A stretch of 64,000 nt of DNA. It comes from Flavobacteriaceae bacterium (GTDB lineage: Bacteria; Bacteroidota; Bacteroidia; Flavobacteriales; Flavobacteriaceae). The stretch lies in the NCBI GenBank assembly GCA_024762795.1, contig JANTGS010000003.1:1-64000 (forward strand). The letters are read 5' to 3'. Shown in pieces: positions 1,408-26,233 of this stretch (position 1 is its first letter; each line of letters starts with the position of its first letter). Both the position numbers and the translations under genes were made by a program. The notes under the pieces were generated by a model that was not told the DNA's origin, searched no databases, and saw only the letters and a program-made list of their open reading frames with translations.

Positions 1408-1409
1408 TG

Positions 1410-3791: not shown

Positions 3792-5683
3792 AATCTGTTA
3801 AATTTAATAATGTGATTATCTTTAGGTTTTACCTCAAGTGATATATTGTAAAAACCTGGTTTATTTATATTTATACTGCCGGTATTATAATTGTTAAAGC
3901 TGTCTATTACCCATGCCGAATTGGGTTCACCAACGGTTTTTCCTGTAATTTGTAACTTATGTTTTAATTCTTGTCCGGCTGTTTTTATCAACAGGATATC
4001 TTTACCCGGTTTTTCTTCCTGAAAGCTGTAAGAGGCATCAACTTTATATGTTCCCGGTTTATCAAAATAGATCTTCCATGTATATTTACTATCTTCTTCT
4101 ATAATCAATCGTTGAGGTATCGTACCATATCTACTTGGAGATAAGATCTTTGTGCTGCCTTTAGAATTGATCGTATTTAAAGGGGTTAATGCATAACCTC
4201 CACCGGTAGATTCTCCTACGAGTCCTTTTACTATTTCCGGTTTGTGGTCAAATTCCATAACTAATACCGAAACGTATGGGTCGGGTAAATCAACCGGTAA
4301 GCTGATCCGGGTAACCACAGCCTGATGCGTAAACGGTATAGGTGTTTTTAATTTGTCCTTCAGTAAATAGATCTTAGAGGGTTTTGACTGAATTGCAGTG
4401 ACTCTTAATTGTTTGTCAAGCGGCCAGTTAAACACATGAAGATAGATTTTGGTCTTTCCGTTTTCAGTTTTAGTTGTAATTCTTCCCCAATCGTGCAGAT
4501 CTGAACGCAGATCAAAAGCACCACTCTTATAAACAGATTCGCCATTTGTTTTTAACCAGTTTCCTATTTTTTCAAACCGGTCGGTAATCTCGTAAGGGAT
4601 CTCACCATTAGCACGCGGGCCGATGTTAAGCATATAGTTGCCATTCAAACTTACATTATTGATCAGATTTTGTAATATTTTTGATGTAGCGTTCCACTGA
4701 TTTTCAGTTGCATGAAATCCCCAGGAATGGGCAACAGTACCGGCAGTCTGCCAGGGATAATCTAGCTTTTCTTTTCCCAGCTGGTTATCGCCCAGTGTTC
4801 TGAAATCGATATCGTTGTCTTCATCAACTGAAAGTCCCAGACGAGAATTGATCAGGCAGTTGGGTTGTAGTTCTCTAATCAGATCTTTCAGCTGCAAAAG
4901 CTGTTTTTTAGTAACGATCGTTTTAGAGTGGGGAATCCACATATCAAACCACATGATACTTATATCACCGTAATTGGTCAGCAGTTCACGTACCTGAGGA
5001 ATGACTTTTTCCTGCCAGTATTGATCGTATTCTTTTTGTGTAAGTCCGGAAAGTTCTTTGTTATGATCCCATCCGTATTTGTGTTGCCAGTCGATCCAGT
5101 GCGAATAGTAGAGTCCCAGTTTTATTCCGTGTTTTTTACAGGCAACAGACAATTCTTTAATAAGATCCCTTTTGGGTGAAGTATAATTTCCAAGATCGTA
5201 ATCAGAAACTTTACTGTCCCATAAGGCAAAGCCATCATGGTGCTTGGCCGTAATGGTTAGGTACTTCATTCCGGCTTTTTTAGCCAGGAGTACCCATTGT
5301 TCTGGGTCAATTTCATCCCATTGAATCCGGTTGATCAGAGAAATATAGTCTTTGGTATCTATCCGGTTCCGGTACTGGATCCATTCCGCATAATTATTGT
5401 TGTTTCTTATCTTTTCTCCATGCCAGTAACCTTCAGCTGCGCTGTAAAGTCCGAAGTGGATAAACATTCCAAACCGGTCGTTGACAAACCACTGAACTCT
5501 TTCTGTTGTTTTTTGTGCATTGATCTTCCCAAAGCTCAGAAAAAGAAGCAGGCTTATACTTATTATTCTTTTTAATTGTGAGCACACTTTATATAATTCA
5601 TTTAGGTCAATCAAAAATAAATTAAATTTAATGTTAAAAGAAAAAAATGGTATAAACGTACCTTCTGAGGGGTTAAATGACAT
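3773..5683 (-). CDS. Glycoside hydrolase family 29 alpha-L-fucosidase with C-terminal accessory domain
   Basis: 636 aa; WFVNDRFGMFIHFGLYS, YLTITAKHHDGFALWDSKVSDYD, ISIMWFDMW, LLNIGPRANGEIP. The annotated N-terminus (MSFNPSEG...) precedes the signal peptide (LKRIISISLLLFLSFGKINAQ); a GTG at 5585-5587 is an alternative start. Overlaps the GH95 start by 19 nt. Confidence 0.92.
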   Translation of the reverse strand: MSFNPSEGTFIPFFSFNIKFNLFLIDLNELYKVCSQLKRIISISLLLFLSFGKINAQKTTERVQWFVNDRFGMFIHFGLYSAAEGYWHGEKIRNNNNYAEWIQYRNRIDTKDYISLINRIQWDEIDPEQWVLLAKKAGMKYLTITAKHHDGFALWDSKVSDYDLGNYTSPKRDLIKELSVACKKHGIKLGLYYSHWIDWQHKYGWDHNKELSGLTQKEYDQYWQEKVIPQVRELLTNYGDISIMWFDMWIPHSKTIVTKKQLLQLKDLIRELQPNCLINSRLGLSVDEDNDIDFRTLGDNQLGKEKLDYPWQTAGTVAHSWGFHATENQWNATSKILQNLINNVSLNGNYMLNIGPRANGEIPYEITDRFEKIGNWLKTNGESVYKSGAFDLRSDLHDWGRITTKTENGKTKIYLHVFNWPLDKQLRVTAIQSKPSKIYLLKDKLKTPIPFTHQAVVTRISLPVDLPDPYVSVLVMEFDHKPEIVKGLVGESTGGGYALTPLNTINSKGSTKILSPSRYGTIPQRLIIEEDSKYTWKIYFDKPGTYKVDASYSFQEEKPGKDILLIKTAGQELKHKLQITGKTVGEPNSAWVIDSFNNYNTGSININKPGFYNISLEVKPKDNHIIKFNRLWIEEK

Positions 5684-7712: not shown

Positions 7713-7730
7713 ACTGAGTGCTTAGTCAGT
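7713..7730. promoter_or_regulatory. Imperfect palindromic candidate TetR operator
   Basis: ACTGAGTGCTTAGTCAGT: outer ACTGA/TCAGT arms perfect, overlapping the expected transcription start and just before the ATG at 7736. Confidence 0.5.
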
Positions 7731-7735
7731 TTATT

Positions 7736-8308
7736 ATGAAAATAGAAAAATCTGTTAAAGAAAAGAAGAATGCAAAAAAAGATATTGTTCAAATTGCAAT
7801 GAAAATGTTTGCTGAAAATGGATATCATAAAACTTCAACAGCAGCAATTTGTAAAAAACTTAACATTTCTTCGGGACTACTCTTTTATCATTTCAGCAGT
7901 AAAGAAAAATTATTGAATGCAATTATTGATCTTATTATTTCTAAGATAGATATTATATTAAATCAAACTTCAAATTCCGATCCAAGAATTGAGTTAGAAT
8001 ACATTATTGATGCTTTTATGGTTTCCTTAAAAAAGGATAGGCAATTTTGGGATTTGTATATGGCCCTTTTATATCAACCGGACACAAAAGAACTCATATT
8101 AGCAAGGGTGTTGGAACATTCAAAACAATTTAGGAGAGCTATTTATGAATTATTAAAAAAGATGGGGAGTAAAAATCCAAGTATTGACTCTTTTGATTTC
8201 GAGGTTTTTAGGGTTGGAATATTTGCTTCTTATTTAGCAAATCACGATGAGCAATTATTAGAAAAATCTTGTAAAAGACTGAAAAATAAATATTTAATAA
8301 ATTACTAA
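7736..8308 (+). CDS. TetR/AcrR-family transcriptional regulator
   Basis: IVQIAMKMFAENGYHKTSTAAICKKLNISSGLLFYHFSSKEKLLNAIID is a classic TetR HTH. The track start (7718) is a GTG inside the palindrome; the ATG at 7736 (MKIEKSVKEK) fits the promoter better. Confidence 0.9.
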   Translation: MKIEKSVKEKKNAKKDIVQIAMKMFAENGYHKTSTAAICKKLNISSGLLFYHFSSKEKLLNAIIDLIISKIDIILNQTSNSDPRIELEYIIDAFMVSLKKDRQFWDLYMALLYQPDTKELILARVLEHSKQFRRAIYELLKKMGSKNPSIDSFDFEVFRVGIFASYLANHDEQLLEKSCKRLKNKYLINY

Positions 8309-8328
8309 TTCATCTAAATATAATTATT

Positions 8329-10815
8329 ATGACTAAAAATTTATTTGCTTTTCTAATTTTTTCCTTTATTACCGGAATGATCTTCTCTCAAGGAGGAGTA
8401 AAAGGAAAAATTACTGATGAGAATGGGAGTGGGATTCCATTGGTTGACGTCTACATCAAAAGTTTGTCTAAAGGAGTTACGACCGCTGACAATGGAACTT
8501 TTGAAATTTTAAACTTGAATAATGGAACATACGACTTGAATATTTCCTCTTTGGGATATTATACAATATCTAAGAATATTACTATTGATAATAGTGTTTT
8601 AGATCTTGGTACTATTGTTTTACAAACAAGTACACAAGTAATGGATGAAGTTGTTATTTCTGGTTCAAGGAAATTAGAAAAAATAACCGAATCTCCTGCA
8701 ACCATTAGTGTCTTGAGTGTCAAACAAATTCAAAATTTTGCCGGGAGTACCGATGAATTGTTTGCACAACAGAAAGGAGTAGATTTTGGAAGAATCGGAG
8801 CTTTTATTAGTGCTGTTAATATTAGAGGATTCAACAGTGCATTTAATCCAAAAATGTTACAATTAGATGATAACCGTTATTCTACATTGATTGCAACCGG
8901 TTTGGCTTTTGGACCAATGAGTCCTATGATTAAAGAGGATATTGAAAGAATAGAAACGGTATTAGGACCTTCTTCTGCACTGTATGGACCTAATGCCCTG
9001 AATGGTTTAATCAATACAATTTCAAAGTCGCCTTATAAATATGAGGGTACTGATATTGTTTTGGGCGCCGGTTCAAATAGTTTACTCAGTGCAAGACTTA
9101 GACATGCAAAAAAATTAGGTAAAAATGATAGATGGGCTTATAAAATTACTGGAGAATATACAAAAGGTAAAGAAATTAACTGGACAGATTCGGTTTATGT
9201 ACCTGGTGCAGTGCTAGGACAACCTGAAATGGCGAAAGTTGGTAAGCCTGAAGTTGATCTGGACAGAGATGTTGAATTTATTAAAGGACAAGCTTCTTTA
9301 TATTATAGACCGACAGAAACAAGTGAAGTAGGGGTAACTTATGGTGCTAGTCAAAGTAATTTTTTATCTATAACAAATACCGGTAGAAACTCAATCAATG
9401 ACTGGCGAATATCCTTTTTACAAGCAACTTTTAAATCTGATCATTGGTTTGGGCAGTTATATAAAACATGGAGTAAAACAGATGATACATTTAACAACGA
9501 TACAAGAACACAAAACTACTGGATACTTATTGCACAGGGAGTTTCACATGAAGATGCTTTAGAAGAATCCAAAACCGGACCTGGAGCCATTACACCAACC
9601 TTTAAGGATCACTCCAACAGATTGAATTCAGAATTACAGTATAATAATCAATGGAATAATTTAGATTTAATTGTAGGGGTTCAATATCAAAGAGATAATG
9701 CCGACAGTAAACATACCTATTTATTAGATGAAGATGGACCTATTCATATAGATCAACTTGGATTTTATGGACAATTAAGATATGCTTTAGGTGATTCCGG
9801 ATGGAAATTGATTGCGGCAGCACGCGGAGATAATCATGATTTATTCGGCTTTAATTTCTTACCAAAAGCCGGTGTTACCTATACCAGAGAAAATGGAACA
9901 TGGCGTTTGACTTATGGTAAGGGATTTGCAACTCCAACGATTTTAAATACAAATATGAGTCTGTTTGGTGGATTAGTACTTGGTAATGGTGTTGGATTTA
10001 CTTTATCTGATGGATCAAAAGTTAAACCATTGGTTCCGGAAACTGTTCAGACCATTGAAGGAGGGTATAAAGGACACTTCGCTGAAGGTAAGCTATACCT
10101 TGATGTAAATGCTTATTACAATATTTCAGATGATTTCATGAGTCCTCTTACAAATATTGCTCCAAACGCATTTGTTGATGGAACTGTAGTAACCCAGCGT
10201 GGAAATGAACCCATAGAAAACTTTACAGCTGGTTTAGCGCCAGGAGTTTTAGATCCGGGAGCTTTTATTCTAACTTATAAGAATTTTGGTCATGTAAATA
10301 CATATGGTCTTGACCTTGGTTTGGTTTATTATATTTCAAATCATTACAATATCTCAATGAATTACTCATATTTTGATTATATTTTGGATAAAGATGATAT
10401 GGCAAATGATGGAAATGGTGACGGTGAGGTTACTCAATTAGATTTGCCAATAAACACTCCAAAGAATAAACTAAGTACAGCATTTAATGTTACCTATGAT
10501 AAGTTTTATGGAGCCTTGTTATCAAGGTGGGTGCAAAAATATGATTTCTTTTCAGGAGGAGCTGCCGCAGCAAAAACAAACAAAGATCTTATATTCAACG
10601 GAGATCCGGTTATTGAAGATCATTTAGTTGGAAAAAAATGGAATTATGGACAACTGGGAGGATTCTACATGAGTATAAATGCCGGCTACAGATTTAGTAA
10701 AACATTTAGTCTCGGTGCTTACTTAAATAACTTTGTAGGATCAGGAAACTATGAATTTATCACGGCTCCACCAGTTGAAACCTTATATGGAATCGAACTA
10801 AAAATTTCATTGTAG
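8329..10815 (+). CDS. TonB-dependent outer-membrane receptor with N-terminal carboxypeptidase-like regulatory domain
   Basis: 828 aa; GKITDENGSGIPLVDVYIKSLSKGVTTADNGTFEI, VNIRGFNSAF plug, IERIETVLGPSSALYGPNALNGLINTISK; no SusD partner adjacent. Confidence 0.93.
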   Translation: MTKNLFAFLIFSFITGMIFSQGGVKGKITDENGSGIPLVDVYIKSLSKGVTTADNGTFEILNLNNGTYDLNISSLGYYTISKNITIDNSVLDLGTIVLQTSTQVMDEVVISGSRKLEKITESPATISVLSVKQIQNFAGSTDELFAQQKGVDFGRIGAFISAVNIRGFNSAFNPKMLQLDDNRYSTLIATGLAFGPMSPMIKEDIERIETVLGPSSALYGPNALNGLINTISKSPYKYEGTDIVLGAGSNSLLSARLRHAKKLGKNDRWAYKITGEYTKGKEINWTDSVYVPGAVLGQPEMAKVGKPEVDLDRDVEFIKGQASLYYRPTETSEVGVTYGASQSNFLSITNTGRNSINDWRISFLQATFKSDHWFGQLYKTWSKTDDTFNNDTRTQNYWILIAQGVSHEDALEESKTGPGAITPTFKDHSNRLNSELQYNNQWNNLDLIVGVQYQRDNADSKHTYLLDEDGPIHIDQLGFYGQLRYALGDSGWKLIAAARGDNHDLFGFNFLPKAGVTYTRENGTWRLTYGKGFATPTILNTNMSLFGGLVLGNGVGFTLSDGSKVKPLVPETVQTIEGGYKGHFAEGKLYLDVNAYYNISDDFMSPLTNIAPNAFVDGTVVTQRGNEPIENFTAGLAPGVLDPGAFILTYKNFGHVNTYGLDLGLVYYISNHYNISMNYSYFDYILDKDDMANDGNGDGEVTQLDLPINTPKNKLSTAFNVTYDKFYGALLSRWVQKYDFFSGGAAAAKTNKDLIFNGDPVIEDHLVGKKWNYGQLGGFYMSINAGYRFSKTFSLGAYLNNFVGSGNYEFITAPPVETLYGIELKISL

Positions 10816-10842
10816 ATTTATGATAATTTGAGTTAATTTTAC

Positions 10843-10874
10843 TAAAGAATGTCGGTTAAAACCGGCATTCTTTA
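10843..10874 (+). terminator. Stem-loop terminator/attenuator between TonB receptor and symporter genes
   Basis: TAAAGAATGTCGGTT-AA-AACCGGCATTCTTTA: ~15-bp stem with one G-T pair. Confidence 0.75.
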
Positions 10875-10988
10875 ACTTTCAATGTAAACTGTAATTATCA
10901 ACAAGTTTTAGGTAATTAAGTTTCTATCCTTTTTAAGAAGGAGTTTAGGAAATTACTCATTCAATTGTAAACTTTCTAAAAAATAAAA

Positions 10989-12506
10989 ATGGTGTTAGCT
11001 TGGATACTTTTTATATTTTATTTGTTGGGAACTTCTTATTTGGGGTATCTTGGTTATAAAAAAACTGAAGGGTTTAGTAGTTTTGCAATTGGGAAAGGAG
11101 ACCTTTCTCCACTTGTTGTTGGTGTTACACTTGCGGCAAGTACAGCCTCAGCAGCAACATTTATAATTAATCCCGGGTTTGTATATGTAGATGGATTATC
11201 AGCATGGATAAATATGGTGCTGGGAACATTTACAGGTATTATGTTTATGCTGTCAATACTTTCATTTAAATTTAGAAGAATAGGTGAGAAAATGAAGGCA
11301 CTTACAGTACCGGATTGGATAGGGAAAAGATATAATTCAAAAGCCTTTTCTCTTTATTTTGCCTTTATAAACCTTTTGTCATTTGCGTTTGTGGTATTGT
11401 TAGTTGGAGGAATCTCTATAGTGATGCAAAAATTATTGGGTGTTGATAATGTTGTTGCTTTGATTATAACTCTTGTATTTGTAACAGGTTATGTGTTTTT
11501 TGGAGGCACCTACGCTCATGTTTATACAAATATGTTACAGGGTTTTTTAATGATCATCGTGACTTTAGTAATACTTTGGTCGGGAATTCAATTAGTTTTA
11601 AAATCTGGAGATCCTGGTTTTCTTCAACAAATCTATAATGAAGATCCTAATTTATTAGCCTGGATTAATAAAGAAGGTTCGCTATTTAACGATTTCTTTT
11701 CAATCTATGTTACCGGTTTTTTTATAGGTGCAGCAGTCGTCTCTCAACCTCATATCCTAACCAAGGCATTATATGTAAAGTCGGATCAAGCGGTAAAAAA
11801 ATATCTTTGGGTCTTCGGTATAATCTTATTTTTATTTCTTTTATTGGCAACAGTTGGCTTCTTTGCCCATATCAGTGTACCTTCATCAAAATTTATAGAT
11901 GATACCACCGGAATATTCAGGCAAGATCTGGTAATGATTGTTTATCTCTTAAACACATTTCCTGATTGGGTCTTTACGTTGATTAGTATTGTGCTACTGG
12001 CGGCAGCTATGTCTACCTTGGATGGTCTTTTGGTTAGTATTTCAACAATTACGGCAAACGATCTTATCACAAACCTAATAGATAAGTTTTCTAAAAAAGA
12101 AATGAATGAAGAATTAAAAATGAAAATAGCATTTAAATTGAGTCATGTTGTTTTAGTTATCATAGCAATTCTTGTATTCTGGGTTAATCTAAATCCCCCT
12201 AAATTACTAGGTATATACGGACAGGTTGGGGTTTATGGAATGGTATTGGCTGCTTTAGCACCTCTATTGATAGGTATCTTATTCAAAAAAGTATCTTTAA
12301 GATTGGTGTGGATCAGTTCAATTCTTTCAGTTCTAATTCATTTTTTACTTTATTTTTATGGATATGACCTATTTCCTAACTCAAATTTCACTTTTAAAAA
12401 TCCTGCAGTAACTGCAACAATAGCCATTTTAATTGCAGTTATACCGCCCTTAATAATTAGTTACTTTTTTAGTAAAAAAGAATTGAGGTCTGTAATAGTT
12501 GAATAA
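10989..12506 (+). CDS. Sodium:solute symporter family (SSS) transporter
   Basis: 505 aa, multiple TM segments; GVTLAASTASAATFIINPGFVY, FGGTYAHVYTNMLQGFLMI, AAAMSTLDGLLVSISTITANDL. Confidence 0.88.
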   Translation: MVLAWILFIFYLLGTSYLGYLGYKKTEGFSSFAIGKGDLSPLVVGVTLAASTASAATFIINPGFVYVDGLSAWINMVLGTFTGIMFMLSILSFKFRRIGEKMKALTVPDWIGKRYNSKAFSLYFAFINLLSFAFVVLLVGGISIVMQKLLGVDNVVALIITLVFVTGYVFFGGTYAHVYTNMLQGFLMIIVTLVILWSGIQLVLKSGDPGFLQQIYNEDPNLLAWINKEGSLFNDFFSIYVTGFFIGAAVVSQPHILTKALYVKSDQAVKKYLWVFGIILFLFLLLATVGFFAHISVPSSKFIDDTTGIFRQDLVMIVYLLNTFPDWVFTLISIVLLAAAMSTLDGLLVSISTITANDLITNLIDKFSKKEMNEELKMKIAFKLSHVVLVIIAILVFWVNLNPPKLLGIYGQVGVYGMVLAALAPLLIGILFKKVSLRLVWISSILSVLIHFLLYFYGYDLFPNSNFTFKNPAVTATIAILIAVIPPLIISYFFSKKELRSVIVE

Positions 12507-12547
12507 AAAAGAAAAATATAAATATCAGTTTAAAAAGATAAATTAAT

Positions 12548-13729
12548 ATGTCAAAAAAGATACAAATAATAGGAGCATATAATACAAAATTCGGAAATCT
12601 CGAAGAGCAAACTATTTACAGCTTATATGAAGAAGCTGCAAAGGGAGCAATCAAAGATGCCGGAATCAATGTTAATGATATTGACGCTGTTTTTGTTGGA
12701 AATTACAGTGGAGGAAGTTTTAATAATCAGGAACATATTGCACCCTTTGGTGTAAATATATTACCTGAACTTAGGCATAAGCCCATGTATAGAACAGAGA
12801 ATGCCTGTGCTTCGGGTACTTCTGCTATACATTTAGGAGAAATGGCAATTCAATCAGGAAAAGCAAAAAAAGTTTTGGTTGTTGGAGTTGAGAAAATGAA
12901 TTCATTAGATACAAAAAATACGGCTTTGGCCTTGGCAAAAGCATCATATTGGGCAAAAGAAGGAACAAAAGGTTATACTTTTCCCGGATTATTTGCAGAA
13001 TATGCTAAAGGATGGATGAAACATTATGGTTATGATGAGGATTTTCTTAAAGGTTATCTGGCCGAAATATCTTCAAAAGCATACAATTTTGGATCTCAAA
13101 ATCCATTAGCACATTTACAAAAAGCGAGAAGTAAGGAAGAAATATTGAATATTCCGGATGAGAAGAATCCAATGATTGCTTATCCGTTAAGATTACATGA
13201 TTGCTCTTTGATCTCTGATGGTGCTGCAGCGGTAATTTTATCCTCTGATAAAACTGATAAATCAGTTGAAATTGCAGCTACAAGTAGTGCAAGTGATTAT
13301 TTGAATATTGTTGGCAGTAATAGAAATAACTATTTTCTTGATGGTGCTGCCGAAGCTGCAAAAAAAGCTTTTGAAGAGGCAAATATGACTATAAATGATA
13401 TTCAGGTAGCCGAGGTGCATGATTGTTTTACAATCACAGAACTTTTAATATACAGTGCTCTGGGTTTGGCAGAGAAAGGAAAAGAATTTGAGGCCTTAGA
13501 AAACAAAGATGTATACTTAGGAGGGCGATGTGTGATAAATCCCTCGGGAGGTTTAAAGGCTAAAGGTCATCCTGTTGGAGCAACAGGGGTGTCTATGCAC
13601 GCTTTGATGTATAAACAATTAACCGATAATGCCATTGGTGTTCAGGTGGAAAATGCTAAAGCAGGCCTGATATTAAACATTGGAGGATCCGGTGCAACTA
13701 ATATGGTATCTATTTTAAAAAGAAATTGA
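12548..13729 (+). CDS. Thiolase, SCP-x/acetyl-CoA acetyltransferase type
   Basis: 393 aa; active-site motifs NACASGTSAIHLG, VHDCFTITELL, NPSGGLKAKGHPVGATG all intact. Confidence 0.9.
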   Translation: MSKKIQIIGAYNTKFGNLEEQTIYSLYEEAAKGAIKDAGINVNDIDAVFVGNYSGGSFNNQEHIAPFGVNILPELRHKPMYRTENACASGTSAIHLGEMAIQSGKAKKVLVVGVEKMNSLDTKNTALALAKASYWAKEGTKGYTFPGLFAEYAKGWMKHYGYDEDFLKGYLAEISSKAYNFGSQNPLAHLQKARSKEEILNIPDEKNPMIAYPLRLHDCSLISDGAAAVILSSDKTDKSVEIAATSSASDYLNIVGSNRNNYFLDGAAEAAKKAFEEANMTINDIQVAEVHDCFTITELLIYSALGLAEKGKEFEALENKDVYLGGRCVINPSGGLKAKGHPVGATGVSMHALMYKQLTDNAIGVQVENAKAGLILNIGGSGATNMVSILKRN

Positions 13730-13743
13730 TTAAACGATTTAAT

Positions 13744-14736
13744 ATGAACAGGAATGCAAAAATAATAGCTTCCGGAATGTTTGTCCCTGAAAAAATTGTT
13801 CCAAACAGTTTTTTTAATGAATTATTAGGAGAAAATGTTAGTGATTGGCTCGAAGAGAAAGTTGAAATATATGAAAGGAGATGGTGTAGTGAAAATGAGT
13901 CGACAGCTGATTTATGTGTCAATGCTGCAAACGATGTTTTAAAAAATGCCAATTTAGATCCTAATGATATTGATCTAATCATCATATCTACTGATACTCC
14001 TGAATATATTTCACCATCCACTTCAACGATTGTTCAGCATAGAATCGGAGCTATGAATACAGGTACTTTTGATCTGAACTCGGCTTGTGCCGGATTTGTA
14101 ACAGCATTAGATACCGGAGCAAAATATATTCGTGCCGATAAAAAATATAAATATGTGATGGTAATCGGGGCTTATGCCATGTCGAAATATTTAAATCTGG
14201 AAGACAAAAATACAGTTTCACTCTTTGCTGATGGTGCGGCTGCTTTTATTTTGAAATCTGTTGAAGCAGATCACGAGGGTTTTCTTGCCGGAAATTTAAA
14301 AACTCAGGGGCAATATGCCGATTGGATGGGAATTTTTGGCGGAGGGACCAAATATCCTATGGGTCATAAGGCTGTAGATGAAAAGTTGAATAAACTGAAA
14401 TTTGTCAAACGCTTTCCAAGTGAATTGAATCCTACAATGTGGAGTGAAATGATCAAAGAACTTTGCGACGAAATTGGAGTAACCCCTAAGGATATTAACC
14501 ACTTTTTTATCAGCCAATTAAATATTCGTGCTTTAAGAGAGACCATGGATCTATTAGGACTTGATATGAGTAATACCGCAACGATTATGCATAAATACGC
14601 GTATACAGGTTCTGCCTGTATTCCTATGGCTTTTCACCTGACTCAAAAGCAAAATAAGATCAAAAAAGGTGATTTAGTGATGTTTGTTGGTTCGGGTGGC
14701 GGTTTGTCTTTTGCTGCTTCGGTTTTTAGAATGTAA
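13744..14736 (+). CDS. 3-oxoacyl-ACP synthase III (FabH)-like protein with non-canonical active site
   Basis: LNSACAGFVTALDTGAKYIRA (Cys), DGAAAFIL, GSGGGLSFAASVFRM. Track start 13726 is a TTG; ATG at 13744 preferred. His->Ser and Asn->Tyr at the usual triad positions (see findings). Confidence 0.85.
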   Translation: MNRNAKIIASGMFVPEKIVPNSFFNELLGENVSDWLEEKVEIYERRWCSENESTADLCVNAANDVLKNANLDPNDIDLIIISTDTPEYISPSTSTIVQHRIGAMNTGTFDLNSACAGFVTALDTGAKYIRADKKYKYVMVIGAYAMSKYLNLEDKNTVSLFADGAAAFILKSVEADHEGFLAGNLKTQGQYADWMGIFGGGTKYPMGHKAVDEKLNKLKFVKRFPSELNPTMWSEMIKELCDEIGVTPKDINHFFISQLNIRALRETMDLLGLDMSNTATIMHKYAYTGSACIPMAFHLTQKQNKIKKGDLVMFVGSGGGLSFAASVFRM

Positions 14737-14804
14737 TTCATTTAAGATAAGATCTGACCGTAAAATCATAATACTTTAAAATTAATAATTAAAAATATAG
14801 AAAA

Positions 14805-15596
14805 ATGGAAATAAAAAACAAAGTAGCTGTAATAACCGGTGGTGCCAGTGGTATAGGAGCTGCCAGCGCAATTCAACTGGCTCAAAAGGGAGCCAAAATA
14901 GTTATAGCAGATCTGAATGAAGAAGGTCTGAATGAAACCTTAGGTAAAATTAGAGAATCTGGTGGCGAAGCTATTGCAGTAAAAACCAATGTAACTCTTG
15001 AAGAGGATGTAAAAAATTTAATGGATAAAGCCATAGACGCTTTTGGTTCCATAAATATTGTCATTCCTTCTGCAGGAATCTTTAAAGACTCATTTATGGT
15101 CAGTCCAGACAGGGAAACCGGAAAGGTCAAACGTTTTATGAGTACTGAAAATTTTATGGCAGTGATCAATGTTAATCTATTAGGTACTTTTCTAACGCTT
15201 AGAGAAGCTTCTAAAAGAATGATTGATCAAAAATGGGAAGGTATTTTATTTACCATATCATCGATAAATAAAGAAGGACAAATCGGGCAATTAAATTATA
15301 GTTCAACCAAAGCTGCTGTTGCCTTATGGCCTAAAATACTGGTGGGTGAATTTCATGCTAAAAAAGTAAAAGATATAAGGGTTGTTGGAATCGCTCCCGG
15401 TTATGTGGAGACTCCAATTCTGTTGGGTATGAAACCAGAAGTATTAGAATCAATTGTAAAAGATGTGGCTATTGGCAGGTTAGTAAAAACTAAAGAAATT
15501 GTCGATTCAATTGCTTTTTCTATCGAAAATGATGCTGTAACCGGTACGACACTCGAAATAAGCGGTGGAGTTATTTCAAAAGGTCTGGCGAAATAA
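14805..15596 (+). CDS. SDR-family NAD(P)-dependent oxidoreductase
   Basis: 263 aa; VITGGASGIGAASA cofactor motif, ISSINKEGQIGQLNYSSTKAAV (Ser-Tyr-xxx-Lys). Confidence 0.92.
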   Translation: MEIKNKVAVITGGASGIGAASAIQLAQKGAKIVIADLNEEGLNETLGKIRESGGEAIAVKTNVTLEEDVKNLMDKAIDAFGSINIVIPSAGIFKDSFMVSPDRETGKVKRFMSTENFMAVINVNLLGTFLTLREASKRMIDQKWEGILFTISSINKEGQIGQLNYSSTKAAVALWPKILVGEFHAKKVKDIRVVGIAPGYVETPILLGMKPEVLESIVKDVAIGRLVKTKEIVDSIAFSIENDAVTGTTLEISGGVISKGLAK

Positions 15597-15606
15597 TAAG
15601 CATATC

Positions 15607-16557
15607 ATGATGAAAACATCTGTTTTATTAACTCTATTCGGTAGGTCCAAAAAGACAAAAGAATACAGAAACGTTTCTGTAAGCGATTTTGGCAAAAATC
15701 CGGGTAATCTAAAAATGTTTCAATATGTTCCGGAAAGTTTAAAAAATAATGCTCCTTTGGTTATTGTTTTGCATGGGTGCTTTCAAAATGCAAATGCTAT
15801 TGCCGTACAAAGTGGGTGGAATAAACTTGCCGATGAAAACGGTTTTATGGTAATTTATCCTCAACAAAAATTTTCTAACAACTTTAAAAAATGTTTTAAC
15901 TGGTACATGGAAAGTGATATGGAAAGAGGTAAAGGTGAAGTAGCATCTATTAAACAAATGATCGACTTTGCTGTTAATGAGAATAAAATTGACAAGAATA
16001 GAGTCTTTATTACGGGTCTATCAGCCGGTGGAGCAATGACTTCAGTTATGTTGGCTATTTATCCTGAAACCTTTAATGCAGGAGCAGTAATGTCTGGAAT
16101 ACCTTTTGGAGAGGTTAAAGATCTAAAATCAGGATTGAATGCTATGAAAGGTGAACATACTAAAACAGGTAAAGAATGGTCTGAATATATAAAAGCTATT
16201 AACACTGAATTTAAAGGGGATTATCCCAGACTTGCTCTATTTCATGGTATTAATGATCCATTTGTGGCTATTATAAATTCAGAAGAAATGGCAAAGCAAT
16301 ATGTTGATCTACATCATATTAAGACTGATCCTGAAATCATTAAGGATTTTGAAAATAATCCTAAGGTTTTTTTAAAGAGATACAAAAATAACAGCAATGA
16401 GGATATAGTTTTATTGTATTCTATTGATATGAAACATGGAATATCTATAGCTGTAGGTGAAAAGAAGAATTATGGAGGAAAAAAATCAACTTTTGCGTAT
16501 GATACAAATTTTCATGCTCCTTTTTGGGCCTCAAAATTTTTCGGTATTATTAAATAA
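15607..16557 (+). CDS. PHB depolymerase family (Esterase_phd-like) alpha/beta hydrolase
   Basis: LVIVLHGCFQNANAIAVQSGWNKLADENGFMVIYPQQ, KCFNWYMESDMERGKGEVASIKQMI, ITGLSAGGAMTSVM lipase box. Track start 15565 is a GTG inside the upstream gene; ATG at 15607 preferred. No clear signal peptide. Confidence 0.85.
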   Translation: MMKTSVLLTLFGRSKKTKEYRNVSVSDFGKNPGNLKMFQYVPESLKNNAPLVIVLHGCFQNANAIAVQSGWNKLADENGFMVIYPQQKFSNNFKKCFNWYMESDMERGKGEVASIKQMIDFAVNENKIDKNRVFITGLSAGGAMTSVMLAIYPETFNAGAVMSGIPFGEVKDLKSGLNAMKGEHTKTGKEWSEYIKAINTEFKGDYPRLALFHGINDPFVAIINSEEMAKQYVDLHHIKTDPEIIKDFENNPKVFLKRYKNNSNEDIVLLYSIDMKHGISIAVGEKKNYGGKKSTFAYDTNFHAPFWASKFFGIIK

Positions 16558-16617
16558 AACAAGAATCAACATTCAATACTTAATAGAGTATTTTTAAATG
16601 TAAAACAAACTAATTTA

Positions 16618-17103
16618 ATGGAAAATAATTATACGGTTAAAGTTAACAATTCTTCAGAGTTCAATTTTGATCAAGATCATTTAAATGAGCTTAATGCAGT
16701 TAAAGAAAAAGCTTCAGTATACCATATTCTTAATGAACATAAAGCACTGACAGCTGAAGTTACTCACAAAGATTTTGATGAGAGGCTCTATACTATTCGT
16801 TTGAATAATAATATTTACAAAGTAAAGATTGATACTCCACTAGATCAAATGATTAAGGAACTTGGGTTTTCAGTAGGAAGTTCTAAAAAACAAAATGATA
16901 TCAAAGCACCAATGCCCGGAATCATTATTGGAATTGAAGTTAATGAAGGTGATTGTATAAAAGAGGGAGACACGCTTCTCATTTTAGAAGCCATGAAAAT
17001 GGAAAATGCAATATTAAGCACGATAGATGCAACTGTAAAATCTATAAAGGTGAAGGCCGGTGATAAGGTAGAAAAGAACAAACTGCTAATTGAATTAGAA
17101 TAA
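16618..17103 (+). CDS. Biotin carboxyl carrier protein (acyl-CoA carboxylase)
   Basis: 161 aa; IKAPMPGIIIGIEVNEGDCIKEGDTLLILEAMKMENAI biotinyl domain. Confidence 0.93.
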   Translation: MENNYTVKVNNSSEFNFDQDHLNELNAVKEKASVYHILNEHKALTAEVTHKDFDERLYTIRLNNNIYKVKIDTPLDQMIKELGFSVGSSKKQNDIKAPMPGIIIGIEVNEGDCIKEGDTLLILEAMKMENAILSTIDATVKSIKVKAGDKVEKNKLLIELE

Positions 17104-17117
17104 CTTTTGAAAAATAA

Positions 17118-18575
17118 ATGATGAAAAAAATATTAATTGCCAATCGTGGAGAAATTGCCTTACGGGTTATGCAAACAGCAAAAAAGATGGGAATTAAAAC
17201 AGTTGCTGTTTATTCGGATATTGATAGAAATGCACCTCATGTAAGATTTGCAGATGAAGCTGTATGCATTGGGGAAAACCCATCTAATCAATCTTATTTG
17301 TTAGGAGATAAAATAATCGAAGTTGCAAAAAAACTTAATGTAGACGGTATTCATCCCGGTTATGGTTTTTTAAGTGAAAATGCCTCTTTTGCTGATGCTG
17401 TTGAAAAGAGTGATATCATCTTTATTGGTCCTCAATCAACCTCCATTCGTATGATGGGAGACAAGCTCGCTGCAAAGGATGCTGTAAAAAATTATGATAT
17501 TCCAATGGTTCCGGGTGTGGATCATGCCATTACTAATATTAAAGAGGCCAAAAAGATTGCTGAAAAGATCGGTTTTCCAATTTTGATCAAGGCTGCTGCC
17601 GGTGGTGGTGGAAAAGGGATGAGAATTGTTGAAAACACAGAAGAATTTGAATCGCAAATGGAAAGAGCAGTTAGTGAAGCAACATCGGCTTTTGGTGACG
17701 GTTCTGTTTTTATTGAAAAATATGTAACCTCGCCACGTCATATAGAAATTCAGGTTTTGGCAGATAAGCATGGTAATATTGTCCATCTTTTTGAAAGAGA
17801 ATGCAGTGTACAACGCAGGCATCAAAAAGTGGTGGAAGAAGCACCTTCCTCTGTCTTAACACCTGAAATGAGAGAAAAAATGGGAGCAGCCGCAATTAAT
17901 GTGGCAAGATCATGTGATTATGTTGGTGCCGGAACGGTTGAATTTTTAGTAGACAGCAAGATGAATTTCTACTTTTTAGAAATGAATACCCGTTTGCAGG
18001 TAGAGCATCCGGTAACAGAGTTGATTTCGGGAATTGATTTAGTAGAACAACAAATAAAAGTAGCCCGTGGTGAAAAACTGGAAATCACTCAAGAAGATCT
18101 AAAGATCCATGGGCATGCGGTAGAATTACGGATTTATGCCGAAGATTCTTTAAATGATTTTATGCCAAATGTAGGTACACTCGAAGTTTATAAAACTCCA
18201 AAAGGGGAAAATATTAGATTGGATGATGGATATGAGGAAGGAATGGAAATACCCATTTACTATGATCCAATGATTTCAAAACTGGTTACTTATGGTAAAA
18301 ACCGAATAGAAGCTATTCAATTAATGATTGAAGCAATTGAACAGTACAAAGTAGAAGGAGTACAAACTACCTTGCCATTTGGAAAATTTGTTTGCGAACA
18401 TGAGGCATTCCAATCCGGTAATTTTGACACCCATTTTGTAAAGAATTATTACGCTGCAGAGAAATTAAAATCTGAGTTTGATAAAGAAGCAAAAATTGCT
18501 GCTCTTCTTGGATTAAAACTCTATCTGGAAGATCAAAAAAAATTAAGAATTCCTAATTCTACATTAAAAAACTAA
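17118..18575 (+). CDS. accC: Acetyl/propionyl-CoA carboxylase biotin carboxylase subunit
   Basis: 485 aa; [65 protein letters not shown]. Confidence 0.94.
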
Positions 18576-18579
18576 GTCT

Positions 18580-20121
18580 ATGCAAGATAAGAAAGATAAA
18601 CTATTAAAAAGAAGAGTCGAAGCAAAAGTTGGTGGTGGAATTGACCGGATTAAAAAACAGCATCAAAATAAAAAACTAACAGCAAGAGAACGAATTGAGT
18701 ATATTCTTGATGAAGGTTCTTTTGAAGAAATGGATATGTTTGTAACACATCGAACCAGTGATTTCGGCATGGACAAACAACTTATTTATGGAGATGGGGT
18801 TGTTACCGGATATGGTACGATTAACAACAGGTTGGTCTATATTTACTCACAAGATTTTACTGTTTTCGGAGGCTCTTTATCGGAGACCCATGCCGAGAAA
18901 ATATGTAAAATAATGGACCTTGCAGTAAAAGTAGGAGCACCCGTCATTGGCTTAAACGATTCCGGTGGTGCCAGAATTCAGGAAGGAGTTCGATCGCTGG
19001 GTGCTTATGCAGACATATTTTACAGAAATGTACAATGTTCAGGAGTTATACCACAGATATCTGCCATTATGGGACCTTGTGCAGGCGGTGCTGTATATTC
19101 ACCGGCTATGACCGATTTTACACTGATGATCGAAGAATCCAGTTATATGTTTGTTACCGGACCGAATGTGGTAAAAACAGTAACCAATGAAGAGGTGACT
19201 TCTGAAGAATTGGGAGGAGCAAGCTCACATTCAACAAAATCGGGTGTGGCTCACTTTACATCAGCCAATGATGTGCAAGGTTTATTGGATATAAAAAAAT
19301 TATTAAGTTATATTCCTCAAAACAATCAGGAAAAAGCTCCAGATCTTCCTTATGAAATAGGAGATGAGCTTAGAATTGAATTAGAACATATTATTCCGAA
19401 GGACATCCACAAGCCGTACGATATCAAGGATATTATAAAAGGTATCTGCGATGACGATTCTTTCTATGAGGTCCATAAAGATTATGCCGAAAATATTGTG
19501 GTTGGCTTTGCTAGACTTGCTGGAAAGAGTGTTGGGATTGTTGCCAATCAACCATTGTTTTTAGCTGGGGTTTTAGATGTTAACAGTTCAAAAAAAGCTG
19601 CAAGATTTGTTCGTTTTTGCGATTCATTTAATATTCCATTGTTGGTTTTAGAAGATGTACCCGGATTTTTACCGGGAACTGATCAGGAATGGCAGGGCAT
19701 TATCGTCCACGGGGCAAAATTATTGTATGCCTTTAGCGAGGCAAGCGTTCCAAGAATTACTGTGATTATCCGTAAAGCTTATGGAGGTGCTTATGATGTA
19801 ATGAATTCAAAACACATTGGAGCTGATATGAATTTTGCATGGCCAACCGCAGAAATAGCTGTTATGGGAGCAAAGGGAGCCAGCGAGATTATTTTTAAAA
19901 AAGAAATTGAAAATGCTGAAGATCCCGTTGCCAAATGGAAAGAAAAAGAAGCCGAGTATGCTTATAAATTTGCAGATCCTTATCGGGCAGCACGCAGAGG
20001 ATTTGTAGATGAGGTTATATTACCCAAGAATACAAGAAGAAAACTGATCAAGGCTTTTGCCATGCTGGAAGGCAAAAAAATTGACAGGCCCAAAAGAAAA
20101 CACGGTAATATCCCCTTGTAG
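18580..20121 (+). CDS. pccB: Acyl-CoA (propionyl-CoA-like) carboxylase carboxyltransferase subunit
   Basis: 513 aa; [72 protein letters not shown]. Confidence 0.92.
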
Positions 20122-20142
20122 ATAGCTAAGAAAAATAGGATC

Positions 20143-20176
20143 AATTCTGTTTTGGAGAAATAATCCAAAAAGAATT
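20143..20176 (+). terminator. Hairpin in the pccB-mutA gap (attenuator/terminator-like)
   Basis: AATTCT[G]TTTTGGA-gaaataa-TCCAAAAAGAATT: 13 pairs with a single bulged G, followed by TTTA. Confidence 0.5.
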
Positions 20177-20195
20177 TTTAAAAGATGTTTTTAAT

Positions 20196-21560
20196 ATGAG
20201 TGATAAGAAAAATTTATTTAATGAGTTTTCATCTGTAAGCTCTAATCAATGGAAAGAAAAAATCATCGCTGATCTGAAAGGCGCTGATTATAATAAAACA
20301 TTGCTCACGCATACGTTGGAAGGAATTACGATCCTGCCTTTCTATCATCGGGATAATTACAGAGAATTAGAAATTCCTAACGAGAAAAAAGGGTTTCAAA
20401 TTTGTCAGTCAATACTAATTAAGGAAGAAAATGAAGCAAATTATTTAGCATTGAATGCTGTAAAACAAGGTGCGGATTGTGTCCAATTTATTGTAAATAA
20501 GATATTTGACCATAAAACTGTTCTACAGGGACTTGAAGAGGTTACAATCTATTTTCGTTTTCTTTTTTTTGATTCTGTTTTTATTACAGAGCTGGTAAAA
20601 TCATACAAGAAACTAAACCTGTATTTAAATATTGACCCTGTTGGAAATCTTGTAAAAACAGGAAACTGGTTTAATAACAAACAAGCAGATTTTGCAGTAA
20701 TCAAATCTTTCCTTCAGGCAAAGAATGATCATATTACGGTTTTGGGTGTAGATGTTACCCAATATCAAAATGCTGGTGCAAATGCTGTTCAACAGGTTGC
20801 TTATGCTCTTGCCCATGCAAGCGAATACCTGAACTTTATCGATGAAAATAAAATCAATACTGTAAAAAAGATACTTTTTAATTTTTCAACAGGAAGCAAT
20901 TATTTCTTCGAAATTGCCAAATTAAGAGCTTTTAGGTATTTGTGGAACCTTTTAATAAATGAGTACAAATTTGAGATTGAAGCAACTATTTATACCGTAC
21001 CAACAAGTCGTAATAAAACACTTTTCGATTACCATGTGAATATGCTTAGAACCACTTCTGAAAATATGAGTTCAGTTTTAGGTGGAGCAGATATAATAAG
21101 CAATGTTTCCTTTGATCATATTTTTCATAAAAAAAATGAATTTGGCGAAAGAATTGCCCGTAACCAGTTGATTATATTAAAAGAAGAAAGTAAAATCAAA
21201 AATGGCCGTGCAACCCGGGGCTCCTATTATATTGAGGATATTACCTATGAAATAGCAGAAAAATCTTTAGAATTTTTAAAAGATATTGAGAACAATGGAG
21301 GTTTTATAAAACAACTGTATGAAGGGAGTATTCAACAAAAAATCATTAAAAATGCTCATAAAGAACAGGATCTGTTTGACGAGGGTAAGCTGATTTTGCT
21401 TGGAACAAATAAATATCTGAATACAAAAGACAGTATAAAAGATATTCGAAAGAATTATCATTCCAAAACAGAGCATAAATCCAAAACTTTGATACAACCA
21501 ATAGTAACCAAACGATTGGCAGAAAACTTAGAGGCGAAAAGATTGGAGAGTGAATACTGA
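20196..21560 (+). CDS. mutA: Methylmalonyl-CoA mutase small subunit
   Basis: 454 aa, resembles a diverged MCM substrate domain (KDLKGADY-like N-terminus, RATRGSYYIEDITYEIAEKSLEFLKDIENNGGF), no B12 motif; directly upstream of the large subunit. Confidence 0.88.
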   Translation: MSDKKNLFNEFSSVSSNQWKEKIIADLKGADYNKTLLTHTLEGITILPFYHRDNYRELEIPNEKKGFQICQSILIKEENEANYLALNAVKQGADCVQFIVNKIFDHKTVLQGLEEVTIYFRFLFFDSVFITELVKSYKKLNLYLNIDPVGNLVKTGNWFNNKQADFAVIKSFLQAKNDHITVLGVDVTQYQNAGANAVQQVAYALAHASEYLNFIDENKINTVKKILFNFSTGSNYFFEIAKLRAFRYLWNLLINEYKFEIEATIYTVPTSRNKTLFDYHVNMLRTTSENMSSVLGGADIISNVSFDHIFHKKNEFGERIARNQLIILKEESKIKNGRATRGSYYIEDITYEIAEKSLEFLKDIENNGGFIKQLYEGSIQQKIIKNAHKEQDLFDEGKLILLGTNKYLNTKDSIKDIRKNYHSKTEHKSKTLIQPIVTKRLAENLEAKRLESEY

Positions 21561-21565
21561 TATGA

Positions 21566-23638
21566 ATGAGTTATAAAAAAATCAGAATGAATAAAAAAAT
21601 GTCAAGAAGAAATATCCAAAATATAAAAATCAAAAGCCGAGAGGGCAAGAATAGAACCAAAGATTTTGTTGCCGGGATAAAACCGTACCTTCGAGGGCCT
21701 TATTCAACTATGTATGTTCGCCGACCGTGGACTATTAGACAGTATGCAGGGTTTTCTACAGCAGAAGAGAGCAATGCTTTTTATCGAAGAAATCTGGCGG
21801 CAGGTCAAAAAGGTTTATCTGTAGCATTCGACCTGGCCACTCACCGGGGTTATGATTCTGATCATGAAAGAGTACGTGGTGATGTTGGAAAAGCAGGGGT
21901 TGCGATTGATTCTGTTGAAGATATGAAAATCTTGTTCAACGAAATTCCCTTGGAAAAAATGTCTGTTTCCATGACCATGAATGGAGCGGTTCTGCCAATA
22001 TTGGCTTTTTATATTGTGGCAGCAGAAGAACAAGGAGTAGAGCAGGAATTACTTTCCGGAACTATTCAAAATGATATTTTAAAGGAGTTTATGGTACGAA
22101 ACACTTATATCTATCCTCCATCTCCTTCCATGAAAATCATAGCAGATATTTTTAAATACACGGCTAAAAATATGCCCAAATTCAACAGTATTTCCATATC
22201 AGGCTATCATATGCAGGAAGCAGGGGCAACTCCGGTAATAGAGTTGGCATACACTCTTGCTGACGGTCTGGAATATATCAGAACAGGTATCGAATCGGGA
22301 ATGGATATTGATACGTTTGCTCCCCGATTATCTTTTTTCTGGGCAATAGGAATGGATCATTTTACTGAAATTGCCAAATTAAGAGCCGGCAGATTATTAT
22401 GGGCAAAGATTGTTCAGAGATTTAATCCTAAAAATCAAAAATCTCTTGCCTTGCGTACCCATTGTCAAACCAGTGGCTGGAGTTTAACAGCGCAGGATCC
22501 GTTTAATAACGTTACCCGTACAGCAATAGAGGCTATGGCTGCTGCTTTTGGCGGAACACAATCTTTACATACCAATGCCTTGGATGAAGCGATTGCCCTC
22601 CCAACAGATTTTTCAGCAAGAATTGCCAGAAATACACAAATCTATTTGCAAGAGGAAACCAATATCACTAAAACTGTTGATCCATGGGCAGGAAGTATTC
22701 TGTTAGAAAATTATACCAATGAAATTGCTCAAAAGGCGTGGAGTCTGATAGAGGAAGTGGAAAATTTAGGGGGTATGACCAAAGCTATAGAAAAAGGTAT
22801 TCCGAAAATGAGAATTGAAGAGGCTGCAGCAAGAAAACAAGCCAGAATTGATAGCGGAGAAGATATTATTGTTGGTGTAAATAAATATAAATTAAAAGAA
22901 GAAGAACCAATCGATATATTAGAAGTGGATAATGAATCGGTAAGAAATTCTCAGATAAAAAGACTTGAACAGCTAAAAGCCTCGAGAGATAAACTGAGGG
23001 TTAAAGAATCATTAGATACGTTAACCTATGCTGCAAAAACAGGAGAAGGAAATTTATTGGATTTAGCCGTAATAGCAGCCAGAAACAGAGCTACCTTAGG
23101 GGAAATCTCAGAAGCCTTGGAAAAAGTTTTTAAACGGTATAAAGCACATATTAATACAATAACCGGTGTTTACGGAAAAGAGATTGAGGGTGATAAAAGC
23201 TTTCAGGAAACGATGGAATTATCAGATAAGTTTGCAAAAATTGAAGGCCGAAGGCCTAGGATCATGGTTGCAAAAATGGGACAGGACGGCCATGACCGGG
23301 GTGCAAAAGTGGTAGCTACCGGTTTTGCTGATCTTGGCTTTGATGTAGATGTTGCTCCCTTATTTCAAACTCCGGAGGAAGTAGCAAAACAAGCTATAGA
23401 GAATGATGTGCATGTGCTTGGAGTTTCTTCACTGGCCGCAGGTCATAAAACATTAATACCTCAGGTAATTGAAGAACTGAGAAAATTTGGCAGGGAAGAT
23501 ATTCTGGTAACAGCAGGAGGTGTTATTCCTCCTCAGGATCATCAGTTTTTAAAGGATAAAGGGGTAGTTGGAGTTTTTGGTCCCGGAACAAAAATCAGCA
23601 AGTCAGCTAATGATATTTTGAAATGTTTATTAAATTAA
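21566..23638 (+). CDS. mutB: Methylmalonyl-CoA mutase large subunit
   Basis: 690 aa; [52 protein letters not shown], and B12-binding [22 protein letters not shown]. Start may be internal (MNKKMSRRN). Confidence 0.95.
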
Positions 23639-23648
23639 TATATTAAAA

Positions 23649-25190
23649 ATGAATAATATGCATGCAGCAGATTTATTAACCAACAGGGTTAGATTAACGC
23701 CCGATAAAGAGGCTATCTACGATTATGATAATGATAAAAGATATACTTATAAAGAATTTAATGAAAGAGTTAACCGTGTTGCCAATTTTTTAAAAGATAA
23801 ATTAGGAATACAAAAAGGAGATCGTGTTTCGTTCTATGCCTATAATTCAATTACTTATTTGGATGTTCTATATGCTGTTGGAAAAATAGGAGCTATAATT
23901 GCTCCCCTAAACTGGAGGCTGACTGTTCCGGAATTGGCATATATAACAAATGATTCTCTTCCTAAAGTCATTTTTGTTGGGCCGGAATGGATTGAGCAAT
24001 TCAAAGAGCTCCGTAAACTTACTCATATTCAAAATATTGTAGCCATAGATGGGGCAAATATAGATGGTGCTTTGAACTATGATGAAGAGCTTAAAAAATC
24101 ATCGGTCGAAGAACCACTACGGCCTGATGATCTAAATGGGGAAGACACCTATTGTATTATGTATACTTCAGGTACAACAGGACGTCCCAAAGGAGCTATG
24201 ATTCCTCATAGGCAAGTCTTATGGAACGTGATTAATTTACCTGTTTCGTGGGGTTTAAATGAAAATGATGTAACTTTAATTTTTCTTCCTTTATTTCATG
24301 CAGGAGGATTGTTTGGTTATCTTACGCCTTTACTTTATATAGGCGGCAGAATTGTTCTAATCAAAACTTTTGATGCAGATAATACATTGAAATTGATGGA
24401 AAGTGAAGAGTGTACTGTCCAGCTTGGTGTACCTACTATTTACCAAATGTGGTATGAAAGTAATTATTTTAAGAAAGTTGATTTAAGTAAAATGAATTAT
24501 TTTATTGTTGGAGGCGCGCCAATTCCAAAACCACTAATGGAATTATGGGTTCATGATAAAAATATTACTTTCCGACAAGGTTATGGGTTGACGGAAGTTG
24601 GACCAAATTGTTTTTCAATGACCAACAAGGAAGCTAAATTAAAAATAGGCTCAATAGGTAAACCCATCTTTCACAGCCAGGTAAAACTTGTTGATGAAAA
24701 TAATAATGAAGTGCCATTGGGTGAACCAGGAGAATTAATAATAAAAGGTCCGCATGTTTGTAAAGGGTATTGGAATAATTCTGAAGCAACAAAGAAGGCT
24801 TTGGTTGATGGTTGGTTCTATACAGGAGATATGGCAAGAATGGATAATGATGGATTTTTTTATATTGCAGGTAGAGCAAAAGATATGATTATCTCTGGAG
24901 GTGAAAATATTTATTGTGCTGAAGTTGAGGCTGTTTTTAATGATCATGAAGCTGTTAAAAAATGTGCACTGATCGGTAAGCCGCATGAAAAATGGGGTGA
25001 GGTAGGACTTATGATTGTTGAATTGAAACAAAATAAGATGGTAACAAAAGAAGAATTAATCGAATTTACTCAAAAATATATTGCTAAATTTAAGATCCCA
25101 AAAGAGATTGAATTTATTGATAAGTTACCGGAAGTTACATTGGGTAAAACTGATAAAAAAGCACTTAAGGAAAAATATTTAACAATCTGA
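23649..25190 (+). CDS. AMP-dependent acyl-CoA synthetase/ligase
   Basis: 513 aa; IMYTSGTTGRPKGAMIPHRQ, RQGYGLTEVGPN, GWFYTGDMARMDNDGFFYIAGRAKDMIISGGENIY. Confidence 0.93.
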   Translation: MNNMHAADLLTNRVRLTPDKEAIYDYDNDKRYTYKEFNERVNRVANFLKDKLGIQKGDRVSFYAYNSITYLDVLYAVGKIGAIIAPLNWRLTVPELAYITNDSLPKVIFVGPEWIEQFKELRKLTHIQNIVAIDGANIDGALNYDEELKKSSVEEPLRPDDLNGEDTYCIMYTSGTTGRPKGAMIPHRQVLWNVINLPVSWGLNENDVTLIFLPLFHAGGLFGYLTPLLYIGGRIVLIKTFDADNTLKLMESEECTVQLGVPTIYQMWYESNYFKKVDLSKMNYFIVGGAPIPKPLMELWVHDKNITFRQGYGLTEVGPNCFSMTNKEAKLKIGSIGKPIFHSQVKLVDENNNEVPLGEPGELIIKGPHVCKGYWNNSEATKKALVDGWFYTGDMARMDNDGFFYIAGRAKDMIISGGENIYCAEVEAVFNDHEAVKKCALIGKPHEKWGEVGLMIVELKQNKMVTKEELIEFTQKYIAKFKIPKEIEFIDKLPEVTLGKTDKKALKEKYLTI

Positions 25191-25239
25191 AAGGGGCTAA
25201 TAAAATATTAACAATATGTAATTTATAAAATAATTAAAA

Positions 25240-26226: not shown

Positions 26227-26233
26227 ATGAAAT

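Follow-up and report, generated by a model that had tools for sequence, protein, structure and literature searches.

The window (the whole 64,000-nucleotide stretch analysed, from a Flavobacteriaceae bacterium) contains a run of genes at 7718–27043 which all lie in the same direction and include a KASIII-fold protein, hereafter KAS (Table 1). Three members of this run, the biotin carboxylase, the propionyl-CoA-carboxylase-type beta subunit and the methylmalonyl-CoA mutase large subunit, were named by sequence recognition and are presumed to be what these names say. The mutase small subunit (20196–21560) is short, with 454 aa against a 620-position model of which the last ~130 positions are unmatched. 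Upstream of the run, genes on the minus strand (790–5683) resemble alpha-L-fucosidases/glycosidases by eye.

Table 1. Genes and active-site codons of the KAS locus, in positions of the window
Feature	Position	Strand	Remarks
TetR-family regulator	7718–8308	+	heads collinear run
TonB-dependent receptor	8329–10815	+	
Sodium:solute symporter (SSF)	10989–12506	+	weak similarity to PanF
SCP-x/archaeal-type thiolase	12548–13729	+	NACAS, HDCF and GHP motifs
KASIII-fold protein (KAS), "Asp-Cys-Thr/Ser-Tyr" family	13744–14736	+	330 aa
Asp84 codon	13993–13995	+	aligned with presumed catalytic Glu of HMG-CoA synthase; E. coli FabH Thr81; invariant in family
Nucleophile Cys115 codon	14086–14088	+	on FabH Cys112 (HMMER, MAFFT)
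Ser257 codon	14512–14514	+	FabH His244; Thr in 113/115 members
Tyr287 codon	14602–14604	+	FabH Asn274; Tyr in 115/115
Ser317 codon	14692–14694	+	FabH Phe304; Ser in 114/115
Classical SDR, FabG/3-hydroxyacyl dehydrogenase type	14805–15596	+	
Type-1 scl-PHA-depolymerase-family esterase	15607–16557	+	NF050058, 264.5 bits, cut-off 150
Biotin carrier, biotin carboxylase, propionyl-CoA-carboxylase-type beta subunit	16618–20121	+	last two by sequence recognition
Methylmalonyl-CoA mutase small and large subunits	20196–23638	+	large subunit by sequence recognition
Acyl-CoA ligase of KAS-co-occurring family	23649–25190	+	E 2.3e-131
Two alpha/beta hydrolases	25240–27043	+	

KAS has the KASIII fold and is homologous to FabH over its full length. 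It contains the Pfam domains ACP_syn_III and ACP_syn_III_C, and its top match among PDB chains is the FabH 2ebd, at E 4.7e-46 with the single sequence and 2.1e-69 with the family profile (HMMER). It passes the cut-off of NCBIfam model PRK09352 by less than 1 bit (249.7 vs 249) and stays 70 bits short of that of the narrower FabH model TIGR00747. The AlphaFold2 model, calculated as a monomer while KASIII enzymes are dimers, has a mean pLDDT of 93.8, a confident value, and its Foldseek TM scores to FabH and BioZ are 0.89–0.93. KAS is not a thiolase by domain content, as it gives only a partial Thiolase_N match (28.5 bits) and has a KASIII C-terminal domain instead of full Thiolase_N/C domains with the GHP histidine. 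No relatives were found in the viral contigs searched, a viral fold library gave nothing beyond distant type III PKS and ketosynthases, and a literature search found no biochemically characterised member of the family or its operon.

The first-pass annotation had proposed, from an alignment by eye, that the active-site cysteine is kept while the catalytic histidine and asparagine of FabH are replaced by serine and tyrosine. This is confirmed by HMMER and MAFFT, both of which put Cys115, Ser257 and Tyr287 on FabH Cys112, His244 and Asn274. HMMER pairs fisqlNi of the window protein with iphQaNv of FabH and hkyaYTgsa with qkygNTsaa, and MAFFT places C/S/Y at positions 112/244/274 of an E. coli FabH reference sequence, in accord with the alignments to PDB chains. 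The codon positions proposed for the three residues are also exact by codon arithmetic. In the family (115 proteins) the cysteine and Tyr287 are present in every member and position 257 is Thr in 113 and Ser in two; after removal of redundancy at 90% identity, 91 proteins remain with Cys and Tyr in all, Thr in 89 and Ser in two. All 21 proteins of the FabH-type comparison set contain C-H-N. The family state is Thr-Tyr, and Ser257 of the window protein is a rare variant (2/115). Both Ser257 proteins (those of the window and of locus L064, no close kin) have Ala286 for Gly, a substitution found in two other members only, and this pairing hints that positions 257 and 286 may be in contact. Pseudogene formation, decay and sequencing error are ruled out by the open frames and by identical residues in 115 proteins.

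A substitute histidine elsewhere in KAS is not supported, the best His column among the 115 members being conserved at 83%. The positions of K214, R249 and K256, the positively charged ACP-docking residues of FabH, are occupied in the family by Glu (103/115), Asn (103/115) and Asp (92/115), respectively, so that most are reversed in charge or neutral; the window protein follows this pattern at 214 (Glu) and 256 (Asp), and keeps Arg at 249. An acyl-CoA:ACP transacylase was considered and judged unlikely, as the docking charges are gone. In FabH, the cysteine takes the acyl group, while histidine and asparagine carry out malonyl decarboxylation (PMC4807248). Standard decarboxylative condensation, already doubted in the first-pass annotation, is thus unlikely for KAS, given the family-wide loss of His and Asn, the lack of any His column above 83% and the loss of the docking charges; the sequences support well the view that FabH-type chemistry has been lost.

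Relatives of KAS with 43–60% identity are encoded by 57 of 396 genomes of the phylum at E 1e-60, the window's own included, and by 4 of 149 in its class, counts that are anchored on the window protein because relatives were gathered by similarity to it. The family is accessory in Bacteroidota. Carriers include Lutibacter, Maribacter, Muricauda, Pseudozobellia, Lewinella, Phaeodactylibacter, Nafulsella, Ignavibacterium, Balneolaceae, Thermochlorobacter, and Calditrichota and KSB1 MAGs, and a Chloroflexota plasmid encodes a protein of 39% identity with the same motifs. In species-representative genomes, two peptide motifs of the family located relatives at no fewer than 563 loci, of which the best 80 were examined. 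In a FastTree of KASIII proteins with E. coli FabH as the root, an analysis of the kind that the first-pass annotation had suggested, the 115 members, with Tyr in all and Thr (113) or Ser (2), form one clade free of intruders; its support is 0.76 and its stem measures 0.46 substitutions per site. KAS may still be a FabH whose pocket is rearranged so that decarboxylation falls to a different residue, as its fold and overall score are FabH-like; this is most improbable, however, in view of the absence of a strictly conserved histidine, the lost docking charges, the accessory distribution and the three other KASIII proteins of the host genome, each with Cys-His-Asn intact.

Two features had been missed by the first-pass annotation, namely the invariant Asp84 and the change of FabH Phe304 to Ser317. 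Asp84, Tyr144 and Trp233 are present in all 115 members, and Asn112 and Ser317 in 114, while the FabH-type comparison set has mostly Ala at 84, Asp/Glu at 144 and Phe at 317. Cys115, Asp84, Tyr287 and Thr/Ser257 belong to the best-conserved positions in the family. Such conservation argues against KAS as a dead subunit with a purely structural role beside another enzyme, a role for which FabH-like subunits with lost residues, PqsB (PMC4807248) and PhlA (PMC6392133), are precedents; partners of this type have lost the cysteine, and no constant thiolase-fold partner accompanies KAS, so that this reading can nearly be dismissed. When aligned by hhalign with a profile of three Bacteroidota HMG-CoA synthases, Asp84 falls on the glutamate of ATES (STDTPE opposite ATESAL), in a match that is modest overall and badly aligned in its C-terminal half. 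We take this glutamate to be the active-site residue described as Glu82 in the archaeal HMG-CoA synthase (PMC6392133). HMG-CoA synthase and OleA, which are non-decarboxylating, both employ a glutamate (PMC6392133, PMC7064751), and KAS, lacking His/Asn but having a putative acid/base carboxylate, appears to be arranged like them. By homology, Asp84 and Tyr287 are predicted to lie near Cys115. In OleA the carboxylate added to the KASIII-like site, Glu117, appears to stand elsewhere in the sequence and works across the dimer; by residue offset from the cysteine, the KAS family has Ser90 near that site.

Neighbouring genes were counted within eight genes of KAS, at the 79 loci where 6 kb or more of sequence is available on either side. 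A ligase is found in 78, a porin/TonB receptor in 78, an alpha/beta-hydrolase in 72, an SSF/MFS transporter in 71, an SDR in 67, a GbsR-like regulator in 33 and all five core functions in 62, numbers that are upper bounds of true linkage, TonB receptors and hydrolases being common families. The ligase link was checked independently at genome level, where the ligase family occurs in 55 of the 57 KAS-positive genomes and in only two KAS-negative ones of the 396-genome sample (Fisher 2e-62, a value inflated by shared ancestry). The porin of Ignavibacteria-type operons has no Pfam family above threshold but models as an AlgE/Occ-like barrel, and by this model it would belong to a porin group that includes carboxylate channels. 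This outer-membrane barrel family, tied to the KAS operon, comprises L053:3010-4554 and about 47 homologues. The transporter of Chlorobi-type operons resembles organic-acid MFS permeases, and the conserved operon looks built for the import of a carboxylic acid and its attachment to CoA. Neither an acyl-CoA dehydrogenase nor an enoyl-CoA hydratase was recognised in the families that recur in the operons, so the substrate is probably already oxygenated at entry.

The first-pass annotation had also suggested KAS as an acyltransferase, a non-decarboxylating condensing or cleaving enzyme, or a partner of the adjacent thiolase. The first two ideas fit the present data, whereas the third does not hold in general, as a thiolase lies within eight genes in 17 of the 79 loci against 78 for the ligase; an obligate partnership is therefore rejected as a general rule, and about four-fifths of the operons have no thiolase close to KAS. 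Lutibacter-type loci share the order TetR-TonB-SSF-thiolase-KAS-SDR-esterase with the window (thiolase identity 82–84%), and several Bacteroidales loci have an AtoB-type thiolase. Rhodobacterales plasmids encode a 44–45% identical thiolase with a ligase and a TRAP transporter, in one case with an SDR, and no KAS was found beside it within the stretch read. The thiolase module thus occurs apart from KAS, and most KAS modules have no thiolase. Plasmid operons of Sulfitobacter and Rhodovulum (L191:8001-13759 and L190:1122-7711, respectively) contain an SCP-x-type thiolase, an AMP-ligase and a TRAP transporter adjoining a helix-turn-helix regulator, and the Rhodovulum one also an SDR.

Where KAS and thiolase are neighbours, a condensation of the HMG-CoA synthase type may be envisaged, in which Asp84 would deprotonate acyl-Cys or acyl-CoA and the carbanion would add to a keto group, with the thiolase acting as in the archaeal thiolase/HMGCS/DUF35 complex. 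The acidic residue before the nucleophilic cysteine is common to both enzymes, the best PDB match of the window thiolase is the acetoacetyl-CoA thiolase 6esq, known from the complex with HMG-CoA synthase (PMC6392133), and KAS, a thiolase and a DUF35 protein occur together on the Chloroflexota plasmid and in locus L091. Nevertheless, we consider this possible but rather unlikely, as Thr/Ser stands at the position of the HMG-CoA synthase histidine throughout the family, the NCBIfam HMGCS models give the window protein 34–60 bits against cut-offs of 244–360, most loci lack a nearby thiolase and the operons resemble uptake and degradation systems. KAS also differs from HMG-CoA synthase in its short KASIII length.

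Leaving the exact reaction aside, KAS is very probably a CoA-dependent, non-decarboxylating enzyme of a catabolic operon. In the scheme with the best support, a carboxylic acid is taken up, activated with CoA and oxidised by the SDR before a C–C bond step; this last step is assigned to KAS because it is the only thiolase-superfamily enzyme recognised in most operons. Our preferred, still tentative reading is that KAS cleaves 3-oxoacyl-CoA (retro-Claisen) in hydroxy-acid catabolism. A released hydroxy acid would be imported and converted to its CoA ester by the ligase, and the 3-hydroxyl would be oxidised by the SDR. Cys115 would then attack the keto carbonyl of the 3-oxoacyl-CoA, Asp84 would give a proton to the leaving acyl-CoA enolate, Tyr287 and Thr/Ser257 would hydrogen-bond in place of His/Asn, and CoA would free the acyl group from Cys115; in net terms, FabH-like machinery would run in reverse with a proton instead of CO2. 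This exact reaction is what we infer, and its direction (cleavage or condensation) is not readable from sequence. Against cleavage by KAS, both the window and the Lutibacter-type loci have a competent-looking thiolase next to it, and several Bacteroidales loci have an AtoB-type one, so that KAS may not be needed for this step there.

KAS may instead be an acyltransferase, in which Cys115 would take the acyl group from the acyl-CoA made by the ligase and pass it to an alcohol, an amine or another thiol in the manner of CerJ and ChlB3, with Tyr287 replacing their base. The nearly obligate KAS-ligase pairing agrees with this, and recalls PqsBC/PqsD, FabH-like enzymes supplied by a dedicated acyl-CoA ligase. 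That ligase is PqsA. PqsC, like KAS, lacks the asparagine, for which it has Val, but its His is retained and its cluster is biosynthetic. The H269A variant of PqsBC, FabH-like without the decarboxylation residue, still forms the acyl-enzyme (PMC4807248). CerJ and ChlB3 likewise have the KASIII fold and keep the cysteine with other residues changed; they possess a Cys-His-Asp triad, which is absent from the KAS family, and are encoded in secondary-metabolite clusters. Phe266 in the pocket list of ChlB3 (PMC9573744) suggests, by our mapping of positions, that residue 244 is not His there. Acyl transfer appears somewhat doubtful for KAS, as the operons showed no recurring gene recognisable as a dedicated acceptor, a carrier protein or a glycosyltransferase, the SDR and uptake genes indicate catabolism, and simple transfer has no need of an invariant Asp84.

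An Ole-type hydrocarbon/beta-lactone cluster was considered as well, since OleA, OleB, OleC and OleD match the operon in four enzyme classes (KASIII-like, alpha/beta-hydrolase, AMP-forming ligase and SDR), and was judged unlikely from the SDR, which is of the FabG type (247–263 aa), and from the uptake genes. The replacement of catalytic residues by tyrosine has a parallel in the thiolase-fold steroid aldolases Ltp2/Sal (PMC12329534), which belong to the thiolase rather than the KASIII lineage and use other residues. With FabH, KAS shares fold, length, cysteine nucleophile, the Gln/Asn of the HQxN motif and the top sequence and fold matches; it differs by His to Thr/Ser, Asn to Tyr, Phe304 to Ser, Thr81 to Asp, the lost docking charges and the setting of its gene, a catabolic operon that includes an acyl-CoA ligase.

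Three additions mark the window operon as a variant: a thiolase, an esterase of the PHA-depolymerase type and a propionyl-CoA module. The NF050058-type esterase is absent from most other versions. Esterase, SDR and propionyl-CoA genes together suggest 3-hydroxyalkanoates as the window substrate; the KAS module combined with the esterase, a second thiolase and the propionyl-CoA module is what one would expect if odd-chain or alpha-methyl compounds were among these 3-hydroxyalkanoates, and the identity of the substrate is a guess. For the clade as a whole, a possible though more speculative reading is a FabH-fold beta-ketothiolase for 3-hydroxy-acid catabolism with a Cys-Asp-Tyr-Thr site, a nearly obligate ligase of its own and carboxylate uptake in Bacteroidota, Calditrichota and KSB1, and a CoA-transferase version in Chloroflexota.

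The family is large and so far unnamed, keeps the cysteine and probably forms or cleaves carbon bonds of CoA esters differently from FabH. The window protein passes the NCBI beta-ketoacyl-ACP synthase cut-off, and so automatic annotation files proteins of this kind under fatty-acid synthesis. Should the interpretation hold, the family would mark a widespread catabolic pathway for a carboxylic acid and would be a natural case of a decarboxylating condensing site turned non-decarboxylating through exchange of His/Asn for Asp/Tyr.

A protein of ~465 aa (L059:16047-17441 and 31 other loci) is conserved near the KAS operon, often adjoining the SDR, and has no NCBIfam match and only sub-threshold TPR hits. 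In five loci (L066:13101-14132, L065, L073, L076 and L127) a second KASIII-like gene, of the PRK06840 family, directly follows the ligase; it contains Cys-Leu-His at the FabH triad positions and Glu at the position of Asp84, another non-standard site. The Chloroflexota cold-seep plasmid (L177:11185-17183, CP069395.1) contains a KAS/SDR cluster in which a CoA-transferase replaces the ligase, together with a thiolase, a DUF35 protein, a hydrolase and an ABC transporter, a layout that recalls the bbs benzylsuccinate operon.
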